Shown here piece after piece: positions 1 to 33,680 of a stretch of DNA of 33,680 bases. The position numbers and the translations under genes are program-made. Position 1 is the first letter of the stretch. Every line of letters begins with the position of its first letter. The notes below the pieces were generated by a model. The model was not told where the DNA came from. It worked only from the letters and a program-made list of their open reading frames with translations, and did not search any database. The DNA is from an uncultured Schlesneria sp. (GTDB lineage Bacteria > Planctomycetota > Planctomycetia > Planctomycetales > Planctomycetaceae), in contig CAILLA010000175.1 of NCBI GenBank assembly GCA_903834925.1, forward strand, positions 1-33,680, in the 5' to 3' direction.

Positions 1-165
1 CGGGAAAAGCGGGGTTCGAACGAAATCTTGTGCCACTGAATGATCGTCTTCGATCACTCAGTGGCCTTCAATCGCGAGTTTGAAGTTCGAAGACACTGCG
101 TCGGAGAAGACTCCGATGCAGTGGCACATCACATTAGTCCCATTCTGAAAAATCCTGGCGTTGCC
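1..165 (+). repeat. Double-hairpin repeat, copy A (left end cut by window)
   Basis: The core (30-127) begins GTGCCACTG and ends CAGTGGCAC and contains two hairpins with tetraloops TCTT and AAGA. Hairpin 1 differs from the other copies at one stem pair (T-A in place of C-G), and both sides have changed so pairing is kept. Hairpin 2 matches the other three copies over its 13-base arms and loop. The right flank ends in GCGTTGCC at 158-165, which matches the outer inverted repeat of copy C. The spacer between the hairpins is unlike that of copies C and D, so this is an older, diverged copy. Its orientation is the same as copy D and opposite to B and C. It contains no gene. Confidence 0.85.
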
Positions 166-480
166 TTAACAGGGCTAGAAATCGCAACGAACGCGGCCCC
201 AGGGCGGCGCTTCGCGGCTGATGCCGCTTCGCTCTGCCCTGGGCTGATTTGTGATGGCCTTTCAGGCCGGAAAAACATCAGTCCGAGCGTTCTGGGGTCG
301 ACGCCATGAACAGCAATTAGCCAATGGGCTGAGCGAAGCGACTCCACCGGATAGGGAGTCGGAAAAGTCTTGAATCCTGGAGGGATTGCAGAAAAAGCGG
401 GTTGGCAGATGTCATTCCAGAGAATACAGAAATGTCTGAACAAAGCTTCCGTCATCTTTTTTAAAAACCCGCCTCTCTTC
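166..480. repeat. Hairpin-rich intergenic stretch without a gene
   Basis: This stretch holds several palindromes but no convincing coding sequence. CCCAGGGC (198-205) pairs with GCCCTGGG (236-243), and GCGGC/GCCGC (214-218 and 223-227, loop TGAT) is nested inside. GGCCT/AGGCC (256-268, loop TTC) follows. The style resembles the dispersed hairpin-rich intergenic repeats I associate with planctomycete genomes, but I cannot check the copy number. A run of T at 453-462 lies after a weak structure and could be a terminator tail; I give that low weight. Confidence 0.45.
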
Positions 481-2019: not shown

Positions 2020-2178
2020 GGCAACGCAGTGAAGGATTCTTCAAAACGATACCGACACGATGTGCCACTGCATCGGAGTCTTCTCCGACGCAGTGTCTTC
2101 CACATATTAGGTTTGCTATTAAAAGCCATTGAGTGACCGAAGACGGTCATTCAGTGGCACACGAATTCTTCCTGCGGG
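2020..2178 (-). repeat. Double-hairpin repeat, copy B
   Basis: The core (2062-2160, 99 bp) is in the opposite orientation to copy A. Hairpin 2 reads identically to the other copies once reverse-complemented, whereas the spacer and hairpin 1 carry several changes. The outer flank at 2020-2060 (GGCAACGCAGTGAAGGATTCT, then AACGATACCGACACGAT) matches the flank of copy C. The other outer flank is shortened: only about 18 bases separate the core from the end of the amidohydrolase gene. The element therefore lies immediately behind that gene's stop codon. Confidence 0.85.
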
Positions 2179-25934: not shown

Positions 25935-26741
25935 ATGATGATTAAGAAAAGTTTGATGGGTTTAAGTTTGGCAGTACTCGTTGGCACCTTTGTGTTTGGG
26001 CGTGAAGCAGTCAGCTATTTGCGCGCCGGCTGCCAGAATGTACGCAACGCGGTCAAAGCGGAAGTTCCGATCGAATTCGAAATGGAACGGGCACGAACAC
26101 TGATTGATCAACTTGTTCCTGACATTCGGCAGTGCATGCATGTCGTTGCCGAGCAACAAGTTGATATCGAACACCTTCAAACAACGCTCGCTCAGAAAGA
26201 AACTGATGTCGCAAAGCAGAAGGATGCGATTCTGGCCCTTCGAAGCGATCTCGGCAGCGGCAAAGGTGCCTATGTGTACGCACGTCACTCCTACTCTGCA
26301 TCTGACGTAAAGCGAGACCTTGCAACGCGATTCGAGCGATTCAAGGCTGCGGAAGAAATCCTCGCCGCTGACCGCAAGATTCTGGCGGCTCGCGAAATGA
26401 CACTCGTTGCCAATCGCGACAAGCTCGAAAACATGATGCAGTCCAAAAAGGATCTGGAAGTGAAGCTGGAGCAACTTCAGGCCCGCGTCCACACCGTCAA
26501 GGCGGCCGAAACCGTCAGCCAACTTGCGATTGATGATTCGAACCTGAGCCACGCTCGTAAACTGATCACGGAACTGAATAAGCAACTCGACGTCAAGCAG
26601 AAGATGCTCGATGTCGAAGGAAAGTTTGTCGGCCTGATCCCGGTCGAATCAGTGGCTCCTTCGGTACCAGTCGATCTCGACAAGCAGATTGACGCTTACT
26701 TCAGCCAATCGACGCCAGAAGACGCTGTCGCAGTAAAGTAA
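25935..26741 (+). CDS. Membrane-anchored coiled-coil protein
   Basis: A 268-residue protein from the chosen ATG. A single N-terminal hydrophobic helix (about 7-22, SLMGLSLAVLVGTFVFG) is followed by a long heptad-rich region to about residue 220, for example IEHLQTTLAQKETDVAKQ, LENMMQSKKDLEVKLEQLQ and LITELNKQLDVKQKMLD. The tail is acidic. The picture is a membrane-anchored filament or tether, somewhat like PspA-type or DivIVA-like helpers, but I do not claim homology. AGGGG lies eight bases before the ATG at 25935; a second ATG follows at 25938. Repeat copy C starts 75 bases after its stop codon. No enzyme motif is seen. Confidence 0.75.
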   Translation: MMIKKSLMGLSLAVLVGTFVFGREAVSYLRAGCQNVRNAVKAEVPIEFEMERARTLIDQLVPDIRQCMHVVAEQQVDIEHLQTTLAQKETDVAKQKDAILALRSDLGSGKGAYVYARHSYSASDVKRDLATRFERFKAAEEILAADRKILAAREMTLVANRDKLENMMQSKKDLEVKLEQLQARVHTVKAAETVSQLAIDDSNLSHARKLITELNKQLDVKQKMLDVEGKFVGLIPVESVAPSVPVDLDKQIDAYFSQSTPEDAVAVK

Positions 26742-26815
26742 TGGTTTTTCGATGATCTGAAATCGCCTCCGCGACGTTACACTTGGCAATGAGCTCAAAC
26801 GAATCGCCCCGTAAC

Positions 26816-27007
26816 GCAACGCCGTGAAGGATTTTCCAAAACGATACCGACGTGACGTGCCACTGCATCGGAGTCTTCTCCGACGCAGTGTCTTCGACCT
26901 GTAAACTAGCAATTGTAAGACACTGAGTGACCGAAGACGGTCATACAGTGGCACAAGATCTCGTTCGAGCCCCTGTTTTCTCGAAGAAAATTCCTTCACG
27001 GCGTTGC
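26816..27007 (-). repeat. Double-hairpin repeat, copy C (complete)
   Basis: The best complete copy, 192 bp. Its ends are inverted repeats: GCAACGCCGTGAAGGA on the left and the exact inverse TCCTTCACGGCGTTGC on the right. The core (26857-26954, 98 bp) matches copy D at 97 of 98 positions once reversed. The sequence CCCGTAACG occurs at both boundaries (26808-26816 and 27007-27015) and looks like a target duplication, although similar letters flank other copies, so part of it may belong to the element. It lies between the coiled-coil and kinase genes and encodes nothing. Confidence 0.88.
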
Positions 27008-27160
27008 CCGTAACGGAGGATCGAATTTTGAAATCGCGTGATATGCTGGAGCTGCCGCCCCAGACGGAACTGGTGCGGGCAAGAGCCATGAGTTTTCTAG
27101 TAGGATGACGCTGACTTCGTGATCGAAATAACCGAACCCAACTTTTGACGTAACCAATTT

Positions 27161-31835: not shown

Positions 31836-33308
31836 ATGTCGAAGCACGATATCGGTCTGATTGGCCTGGCCGTAATGGGTCAGAATCTCGTTCTCAACAT
31901 GGCCAATAACGGCTTCTCGGTTGCCGTCTACAACCGCACGACCGCGACCACCGATGATTTCGTCGGTGGCCTGAAAAACGAACCGGCTGACAAAGTTCAT
32001 GCCGGTACCGCCAGCCGGATCGAAGGCTATCACACACTGGAATCGTTTGTCTCCAGCCTGAAATCGCCACGACGAATGATGATCATGGTCAAGGCGGGGG
32101 GACCGGTTGATGGTGTCATCGAACAGCTGAAGCCATTGTTGTCGCCTGGCGACATCATCATCGACGGTGGAAATTCAGACTTTGTTGATACCAACCGCCG
32201 TGATAAAGATCTCAGAGCTGCGGGTCTACGGTTTATCGGGACCGGCGTTTCGGGTGGTGAAGAAGGAGCCTTGAAAGGCCCCAGCATCATGCCGGGTGGT
32301 CATCATGATGCTTGGCCTTTTGTCAAAGACATCTTCCAGAAAATTTCGGCCAAAGTCGGTCCAAACAACGATATCCCTTGTTGCGACTGGGTCGGCGACG
32401 CCGGCGCTGGCCACTATGTGAAAATGGTTCACAACGGAATCGAATACGGCGATATGCAGTTGATCTGCGAAGCTTACCTGATTCTGAAAAACGCCCTGGG
32501 CCTGACCAATGACGAACTTTACCACGTCTTCAAAACGTGGAACGAAGGGGAACTCGAAAGCTATCTGATCGAGATCACCCGAGATATCTTCACGGTCAAA
32601 GACAAAGAAACAGGTGAGTATCTCGTCGACAAGATTCTCGACACGGCCCAGCAAAAGGGAACAGGGAAGTGGATGAGCCAGCACGCGCTCGATCTCGGCG
32701 TTCCAACGACCCTGATTACCGAAGCGGTTTACGCTCGTTGCCTGTCGGCTCAAAAGGACGCACGCGTCCGAGCCAGTCAAATCCTGCACGGCCCTGCAGA
32801 CGCGAAGTTCACCGGTGACAAGAAGCAGTTCATCGAAGACGTTCGCCAGGCATTGTATGCATCGAAGCTTTGCAGCTACGCCCAAGGCTACGTCCAGTTG
32901 GACGCAGCAGCCAAAGAATTCGGCTGGAAGCTGAACAATGGCAACATCGCGTTACTGTGGCGCGGCGGCTGTATTATCCGTTCGCGATTCCTGGGCGACA
33001 TCAAGGCCGCGTTCGACAAGAATCCAACGCTCGAAAACCTGCTGCTGGACGACTTCTTCAGCAATGCCGTCCAGAAAGCTCAACCAAGCTGGCGACGAGT
33101 CCTCTCAACAGCAGTACAACTGGGATTGCCAACACCCGTCTTCAGCGCAGCCCTCAACTACTTTGACGGATACCGATCAGCCCGACTTCCGGCCAACCTG
33201 TTGCAGGCTCAACGCGATTACTTCGGGGCTCACACCTACGAACGGATCGACAAGCCACGCGGTCAGATGTTCCATACCGAATGGATTCAGGATCGAAAGC
33301 TGAGCTGA
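31836..33308 (+). CDS. gnd: 6-phosphogluconate dehydrogenase, decarboxylating
   Basis: Oxidises 6-phosphogluconate to ribulose 5-phosphate, CO2 and NADPH in the pentose phosphate pathway. It has 490 residues, the length of the long (homodimeric) type. The NADP-binding start is GLIGLAVMGQNLVLNMANNG, followed by YNRT. FIGTGVSGGEEGALKGPSIM and the signature KMVHNGIEYGDMQLICEAY hold the catalytic Lys and substrate-binding residues. The C-terminal LLQAQRDYFGAHTYERID and FHTEW are also typical. I chose the ATG at 31836; the frame is open upstream to 31785 but that stretch looks non-coding. No clear ribosome site precedes it. No other pentose phosphate gene is in view. Confidence 0.96.
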   Translation: MSKHDIGLIGLAVMGQNLVLNMANNGFSVAVYNRTTATTDDFVGGLKNEPADKVHAGTASRIEGYHTLESFVSSLKSPRRMMIMVKAGGPVDGVIEQLKPLLSPGDIIIDGGNSDFVDTNRRDKDLRAAGLRFIGTGVSGGEEGALKGPSIMPGGHHDAWPFVKDIFQKISAKVGPNNDIPCCDWVGDAGAGHYVKMVHNGIEYGDMQLICEAYLILKNALGLTNDELYHVFKTWNEGELESYLIEITRDIFTVKDKETGEYLVDKILDTAQQKGTGKWMSQHALDLGVPTTLITEAVYARCLSAQKDARVRASQILHGPADAKFTGDKKQFIEDVRQALYASKLCSYAQGYVQLDAAAKEFGWKLNNGNIALLWRGGCIIRSRFLGDIKAAFDKNPTLENLLLDDFFSNAVQKAQPSWRRVLSTAVQLGLPTPVFSAALNYFDGYRSARLPANLLQAQRDYFGAHTYERIDKPRGQMFHTEWIQDRKLS

Positions 33309-33396
33309 AACGTGAAACGAAAAATCCCGCGTCGTCGTGGTTCGAACGATGCAGGAAAATAAGCCAAAAGTGCATGATCTGATCGAAACCCCACCC

Positions 33397-33500
33397 CCTC
33401 TACGGGGGTGGTTAGAGGGCCTTTGCACCAGATTTATCCGGTGCTTTTGAAGCAGCATTGAGACTCTAGGGCAAAGGCCCGTTAACCAACCCCGTAGAGG
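33397..33500. repeat. Long imperfect inverted repeat after gnd
   Basis: The 32-base arms at 33397-33428 and 33469-33500 are near-exact inverses (about 28 of 32 match) around a 40-base loop. Key segments are CCTCTACGGGG with CCCCGTAGAGG and GGGCCTTTGC with GCAAAGGCCC. The right arm runs directly into the left end of repeat copy D. It may act as a transcript end for gnd or may be another small mobile repeat. Confidence 0.65.
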
Positions 33501-33680
33501 CAACACCGTGAAGGAATTTTCTTCGAAAAAACTGGGGCTCGAGATCTTGTGCCACTGAATGACCGTCTTCGGTCACTCAGTGTCTTACAATTGCTAGTTT
33601 ACAGGTCGAAGACACTGCGTCGGAGAAGACTCCGATGCAGTGGCACGTCACGTCGGTATCGTTTTGGAAAATCCTTCACG
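33499..33680 (+). repeat. Double-hairpin repeat, copy D (right end at window edge)
   Basis: The left outer repeat GGCAACACCGTGAAGGA is followed by ATTTTCTTCGAAAAAACTGG and the core (33549-33646, 98 bp). The right outer repeat reads to the window edge (GAAAATCCTTCACG). The core differs from copy C at one base, in an outer stem position of hairpin 1, and the right outer flank matches copy C exactly as far as it is visible. This near identity implies recent spread or gene conversion between C and D. The orientation is the same as copy A. Confidence 0.87.

Follow-up and report, generated by a model that had tools for sequence, protein, structure and literature searches.

A probable RAYT-linked family of paired T1 and T2 REP hairpins in Schlesneria, with one copy lying inside a terminal inverted repeat element

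The double palindrome at the right end of contig C175 of an uncultured Schlesneria sp. is a REP doublet (REPIN/BIME), formed by two convergent hairpins, one each of types T1 and T2, that share the outer foot GTGC. Our overall reading, to which we give a probability of about 0.84, is that it belongs to a family of T1/T2 doublets linked to a RAYT, and that this copy (copy D) is carried inside an element bounded by terminal inverted repeats (TIRs). The window analyzed is the entire contig, 33680 bases, from a draft genome of 9.02 Mb in 307 contigs. It also holds copies A to C, and the coordinates of all features are collected in Table 1.

An earlier note on the window described the core of copy D as two 38-base halves that differ only at facing positions of their stems, and the comparison bears this out. 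Compared with half 1, the reverse complement of half 2 is identical at 28 of 38 positions, and the ten that differ are 10/29, 13/26, 14/25, 15/24 and 16/23, with pairing kept in both halves. The mismatch at 11/28 is likewise present in both, as A.C. The note also stated that the loops TCTT and AAGA are complementary, which is correct, but they are one loop seen from opposite strands. Its span of 33549–33646 describes the core accurately and falls short of the whole unit, as the enclosing element runs from 33501 to beyond the window end. When folded as single-stranded DNA, the 98-nt core reaches −27.4 kcal/mol; 200 shuffled versions average −11.8 (z = −7.1).

Table 1. Positions of copies A to D and their parts in the 33680-base window
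Feature	Position	Strand	Remarks
REP hairpin T1 of copy D (half 1)	33549..33586	+	foot GTGC, stem CACTGAATGACCG, loop TCTT, inner foot TCTT
Spacer between the convergent REPs of copy D, 22 nt	33587..33608	.	
REP hairpin T2b of copy D (half 2)	33609..33646	-	38-nt identity to T2b REPs flanking the genome's RAYT gene
Left TIR of the ~190-bp MITE-like element around copy D, CAACACCGTGAAGGA	33501..33515	+	
Right TIR of the element around copy D, truncated by contig end	33672..33680	-	matching right flank: end of contig C263 (L015)
Copy D target duplication (9 bp), CCGTAGAGG	33492..33500	.	right partner at C263 end; we infer the cross-contig link
Copy C, complete MITE-like element	26817..27006	-	both TIRs and REP doublet (26857-26894 +; 26917-26954 -)
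Copy C target duplication (9 bp), first flank, CCCGTAACG	26808..26816	.	
Copy C target duplication (9 bp), second flank, CCCGTAACG	27007..27015	.	
Copy B	2022..2160	-	TIR 2022-2036, T2b REP 2062-2099, changed T1 REP 2123-2160; second TIR unrecognizable
Copy A, REP doublet	1..168	+	34-mers 30-63 and 94-127, GATCG T1 subtype; truncated by contig start

The hairpin pattern GTGCCACTG-N14-26-CAGTG matched the 9.02-Mb genome 564 times (287 forward, 277 reverse), a count in which a few near-symmetric hairpins (e.g., on C11, C12 and C58) appear on both strands; the reversed control pattern matched twice. Of the 564 places, about 100 are listed individually. The same pattern gave 0 to 308 matches in 14 genomes of the genus. 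G006 had none, yet a hairpin with this foot flanks its RAYT, in a shorter form that is outside the pattern's reach. Constancy of the foot is partly by construction, because the pattern and hairpin searches required or nearly required GTGC. The tetranucleotide foot of REPs is usually GTAG or GGAG; the GTGC of this family departs from that rule, which counts against the assignment.

Arrangement was analyzed in 53 stretches totaling 1.07 Mb, the window included, in which 82 hairpins were located. These stretches come from contigs already known to contain copies, with 76 hairpins per Mb compared with 63 genome-wide. Neighbors no more than 60 nt apart were convergent in 26 cases and divergent in 2, and 52 of the 82 hairpins lie in convergent pairs. 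By labels that we assigned ourselves, 40 hairpins are T1 (..TGACCG TCTT CGGTCA.. plus variants), 22 are T2b (..TCGGAG TCTT CTCCGA..), 11 are T2a (..TCGGAG TCTT CGGAGA..) and 9 are others. T1 was joined to T2 in 21 of the 26 convergent pairs (T1 + T2b in 15, T1 + T2a in 6), and the remaining 5 include an unclassed hairpin; no pair among the 26 carries the labels T1 + T1 or T2 + T2. The gap between 34-mers is most often 30 nt (11/26). Copy D is a T1 + T2b doublet. Its halves therefore differ because they are two regularly paired REP types, and the paired differences lie mainly between types, not in drift within one element. REPs are high-copy palindromes of 20–50 nt, as a rule intergenic. In the window, open reading frames of at least 120 amino acids overlap neither copy A nor copy D; those that overlap copy B (1621–2136) and copy C (26649–27089) are mechanically listed, putative frames. 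Contigs C173, C175, C183, C259, C263, C306, C65 and others end inside repeat copies, so that copy number is probably underestimated and the draft may break REP arrays.

The upper stem of the family covaries. This was assessed on 52 distinct, related 34-nt hairpins from fetched loci of the same genome, restricted to exact feet and with opposite-strand-loop rows removed by pattern; constancy of the foot and lower stem in this set is by construction. Facing pairs take the forms C-G, A-T and G-C at 10/29, G-C and C-G at 13/26, C-G, G-C and T-A at 15/24, and C-G, A-T and G-C at 16/23. Cells were paired in 89.2% of cases as against 78.6% after shuffling, the covariation score was 0.208 (0.070 shuffled, no more than 0.066 slid), and 47 cells carried a change on both sides, compared with 14.4 in shuffles. 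Two of the five measures did not rise clearly above the shuffles, namely pairs changed on both sides (6 versus 5.5) and pair types (15 versus 12.3, a value reached by 35 of 500 shuffles). Position 11/28 is unpaired in 24 of the 52 hairpins, as an A.C mismatch in 22 of those. The earlier note held that copies with unpaired stem changes would speak against selection or copying of the folded shape. Such copies exist in part: T2a (CTTCGGAGTCTTCGGAGAAG) has three unpaired inner positions.

A candidate partner gene was found through the relatives. The REP pairs of G010, G012 and G015 led to the RAYT family, the Y1 matches that they flank being weak or outside the listed ones. A profile (A1) was built from an alignment of three Y1-like proteins of these genomes, whose genes are flanked by REP pairs. 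Run against the own genome, it gave six matches, of which a single one was strong, a 243-aa frame on contig C171 (E = 8e-81). This frame scored 90.1 bits against NCBIfam NF047646 (REP-associated tyrosine transposase; cut-off 80), and a second profile (A2, five such proteins) matched one PDB sequence, E. coli TnpA-REP 4er8 (E = 7e-7). The HUH and catalytic tyrosine motifs of the C171 protein (locus L175) read MPEHVH and YIHQNP. Three exact-foot hairpins lie on each side of the gene within about 250 nt, T1 and T2b alternating. The T2b hairpins match half 2 of copy D at every one of 38 nt; the T1 hairpins depart from half 1 at the compensated 10/29 pair and within the inner foot. Among 200,000 random 730-bp intervals in the 1.07-Mb sample, none had hairpins on both sides. 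The suggestion of a REP/BIME-type element with a Y1 transposase thus gains support from the 564 matches, the covariation in 52 hairpins, and the presence of these hairpins to either side of the RAYT gene.

The closest named relatives of the C171 RAYT come from Schlesneria MAGs; the L224 protein is 87% identical, and the hairpins flanking it read the same as those of G001. GTGCCAC hairpins stand on both sides of 17 of 43 RAYT-like frames, or 12 distinct loci once five doubly fetched ones are removed. The 43 were kept at more than 100 bits and include fragments and duplicates; 26 of them are without this hairpin on both sides, two being flanked on one side. Stems at the GTGCCAC-flanked genes, which include a fair share of the related RAYTs in other planctomycetes, are paired and vary (CTTCGGAG.., CTTCTCGAAG, GGTTGGCC.., CTGGCTTGTCCAG, GGCGTCTCGCC). 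The flank search required the foot and so shows hairpin position and stem change only. G002 and G005 hold 100 and 194 hairpins, and their best RAYT-profile matches reach only 2.6e-18 and 4.2e-21; the RAYT model would require that the gene was lost from these genomes or falls into a gap of their assemblies, and this counts against it. A search with PF01797, which returned 10 matches in the own genome and others in relatives among the matches listed, missed the C171 partner. When 39 such Y1 loci were scanned with at most one foot change, the only clear copy was at C306, a MITE adjoining the gene, and the PF01797 genes were rejected as partners. The Y motif of the C306 gene (L114 3314-3646), YIAEQETHH, fits the Y---Q--HH given for subclass 1.2 TnpA-Y1 (PMC6006769). 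Beside this gene lies a CCCAGGGC/GCCCTGGG palindrome, followed by the REP-carrying MITE; a palindrome resembling it, CCCAGGGC...GCCCTGGG, adjoins copy A at 199–242.

Copies for alignment were found by similarity, with 40 of 427 candidates scored. In an alignment of 41 places, the copy D doublet sits within a unit of about 190 bp with the ends CAACGCCGTGAAGGA...TCCTTCACGGCGTTG and 15-bp TIRs. Fifteen elements with both TIRs (at most 4 changes) and a REP foot were collected from 54 fetched sources, copy D being left out as it is cut by the contig end. Their 9-bp flanks were identical in 10, alike at 8 of 9 positions in 2 and without agreement in 3; 8 agreements are reached by 4.3% of mismatched flank pairs. 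The elements measure 185–191 bp, prefer the target CC-N5-GG, and have the TIRs, target duplication and length below 300 bp of a MITE. The TIRs and 9-bp duplications are the mark of a second transposase besides the RAYT; Y1 transposases are not known to produce a 9-bp target duplication.

Copy C has an empty counterpart in relatives. Its place reads CCCGTAACG-element-CCCGTAACG-GAGGA in the own genome, CCCGTAGCG-GAGGA in G001 and G005, and CGCGTGGCG-GAGGA in G002, in each relative with no element and one copy of the target, as judged by eye. The left flank is well conserved and the right one only over GAGGA before a gap of about 200 nt in the own genome; the empty site is therefore evident on the left and thinly supported on the right. 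Just past copy C, at 27016–27030, the own genome is without these roughly 200 nt, which are common to G001, G002 and G005; there they resemble the start of a small gene, which may be broken here. For copy D, the right flank is assigned to the end of C263, since the 9-mer recurs there together with the second arm of the palindrome interrupted by this copy. Taken together, 33386–33500 and the C263 end (L015) show that copy D interrupts a further inverted repeat within its right arm (CCCCACCCCCTCTACGGGG...CCCCGTAGAGG|GGGTGGGG), and at L019 a like element occupies a like place in an apparent second copy of that interrupted repeat.

TIRs lie within 80 nt of only some of the 26 doublets of the sample: on both sides of 5, on one side of 3 and on neither side of 18 (at most 4 changes in 15). 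Elements with the same TIRs occur in G004 and G007. Among 12 that were viewed (L249–L260), the TIRs bound 117 to 431 bp with very different insides, several of them with paired hairpins (CCCTGTCG.../CGACAGG). Three hold GTGCCAC doublets (L252, L258 and L260, one of them decayed), that of L252 in G007 with another stem, and the 9-bp duplications were exact in two (L255, L257) and 8/9 in three (L252, L258, L259). An autonomous partner, with a transposase bounded by these TIRs, was sought and not found among the matches listed. No TIR pair with the spacing of a small IS appeared among those listed for the own genome, and two longer TIR-bounded stretches in G007 (L248, L261) had no matching 9-bp flanks and no transposase frame recognized by eye. 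Another element, with inverted ends (ATGATGGCTACTTTGG), was noticed at L042 (C132) and at L277/L280 (G005), in both genomes within a REP doublet or immediately next to one; REPs may be its target.

Could the hairpins simply be the inside of a TIR element that a DDE transposase moves, with the RAYT irrelevant? The clear TIRs, the 9-bp duplications in 12 of 15 elements, the absence of copy C at the matching place in three relatives, and the occurrence in G004 and G007 of elements that share the TIRs and carry different hairpins speak for such an account. It does not explain why 18 of 26 convergent pairs are without a TIR at the distance and tolerance given above, nor why doublets flank the RAYT gene. 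At 25 diverged places, moreover, the hairpins are 85–92% alike pairwise compared with 42–60% for TIRs and spacers, a difference that is favored by the choice of places by similarity and by the chance that some never had TIRs. We consider this account improbable.

That hairpins outlast their flanks at those 25 similarity-found places (with the same bias) can also be taken as a sign that a host role keeps them, with copying incidental; RNA stability, termination and protein binding are named for REPs (PMC8266576). One doublet locus shared with G005, where a changed T1 half remains, fits this too. No terminator-like site is present at 33300–33680, which dismisses an intrinsic terminator there, and the range of 0 to 564 pattern matches within one genus suits a selfish or semi-selfish repeat better, leaving a host role slightly less probable than a TIR element alone. 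The paired covariation would also suit a non-coding RNA or riboswitch-like structure. At gathering thresholds Rfam matched 0 families in the window, both strands show an inverted-symmetric fold, and the same hairpins flank the RAYT, all of which make an RNA very improbable. An integron attC site was considered from the end sequences and rejected by eye. The RAYT-linked T1/T2 doublet, carried in copy D inside a TIR element, remains the reading that we prefer.

Folding energies of copy D, computed without G-T pairs, were −24.0 kcal/mol for two hairpins, −26.6 for the minimum (a cloverleaf), −23.3 for a hand-drawn cloverleaf and −19.0 for a hand-drawn in-register long hairpin. Since the upper stems of the two halves differ, a single long hairpin is disfavored and two hairpins or a cloverleaf are formed instead; a doublet next to the G012 RAYT, whose hairpins are alike, folds into a single long hairpin. 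TnpA-REP proteins already known bind REPs in single-stranded form, depend on the foot, make their cut close to it and then rejoin (PMC8266576), and a "clover" form has been proposed by Bertels and Rainey as the form usable by a RAYT (PMC3116915). By analogy with TnpA-REP, the Schlesneria RAYT would bind the GTGC-footed hairpin as single-stranded DNA and read its foot; it might then cut and rejoin, thereby spreading and keeping the hairpins. Pairing of T1 with T2 may keep doublets active and out of the long-hairpin form. The outer element would be moved by a different, double-strand transposase of DDE type, in which case copy D arrived as MITE cargo. The doublet itself was not seen to be excised, cut or newly inserted. 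The TIR-less doublet at C285:26260 offered no empty site, G005 having a changed T1 half there and then another element.

A bolder and, we stress, tentative proposal is that two unrelated transposition systems travel in one parcel. The TIR element carries REP doublets in at least three genomes of the genus (G000, with CGGAG/GACCG stems; G007, L252; G004, L258 and the decayed L260) and other paired hairpins elsewhere (G004, L254 and L259). A double-strand transposase might disperse the parcel, the RAYT, acting on single strands, might keep the hairpins and perhaps move them further, and the two REP types might avoid an inert long hairpin and preserve a RAYT-usable cloverleaf. Nesting in the TIR element suggests that their own RAYT is not the sole means by which REP doublets can spread; among the literature matches listed, the available text gave no account of such spread. 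In the same literature on REP, RAYT and TIR elements, we recognized no description of this sequence in the text available, nor of a TIR-enclosed REP doublet in planctomycetes, and earlier mention in figures or supplements is possible. The result is a planctomycete REP family with a GTGC foot tied to an identified RAYT (one strong match, some 560 REPs), so that the foot-recognition model based on GTAG becomes testable with a different foot. The regular T1/T2 pairing likewise makes the cloverleaf-versus-long-hairpin proposal for REPIN mobility directly testable.

Among known systems, the family resembles REPIN/BIME elements with their RAYT (REPtron; Pseudomonas fluorescens SBW25 and E. coli), as described in PMC3116915, in its high-copy inverted doublets, RAYT-adjacent clusters and compensatory changes. 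E. coli REPs share a conserved stem mismatch, which they need, and combine two types, y with z1 or z2 (PMC8266576). Unlike the REPtron, the Schlesneria foot is GTGC and not GTAG, the heterotypic upper stems disfavor a long hairpin, and some doublets are enclosed by TIRs. In TIRtrons (TIRYT), tyrosine transposase genes are accompanied by inverted, sometimes double palindromic, non-GTAG repeats, some of them in families, and the planctomycete R. baltica has many tyrosine transposase genes with flanking repeats (PMC3733652). Compared by description, those repeats flank the transposase gene, whereas the Schlesneria TIRs bound a non-coding element of about 190 bp with a 9-bp duplication. Subclass 2.6 and class 3 TnpA-Y1 proteins have REPs without GT[AG]G feet, and class 3 is found in Planctomycetes (PMC6006769). 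With motifs matched by eye, the YIHQNP and WQ of the C171 RAYT fit subclass 2.6 (YIH[QN]NP, WQ); unlike that subclass, which is mostly from Bacteroidetes, its HUH motif is EHVH and not NH[LIV]H (PMC6006769). Class 3 differs in its CnGA foot and in a Y----Q motif that is missing from the C171 RAYT (PMC6006769). In IS200/IS605 elements, hairpins bound an IS that moves as a unit; the Schlesneria genome has a single strong RAYT match, with several hairpins to each side. The enclosing element is like the bacterial MITEs RUP, NEMIS and Nezha (PMC3733652), as a short unit with TIRs, a target duplication and inner hairpins. Unlike them, it carries the REP doublet of a second, Y1-type system.
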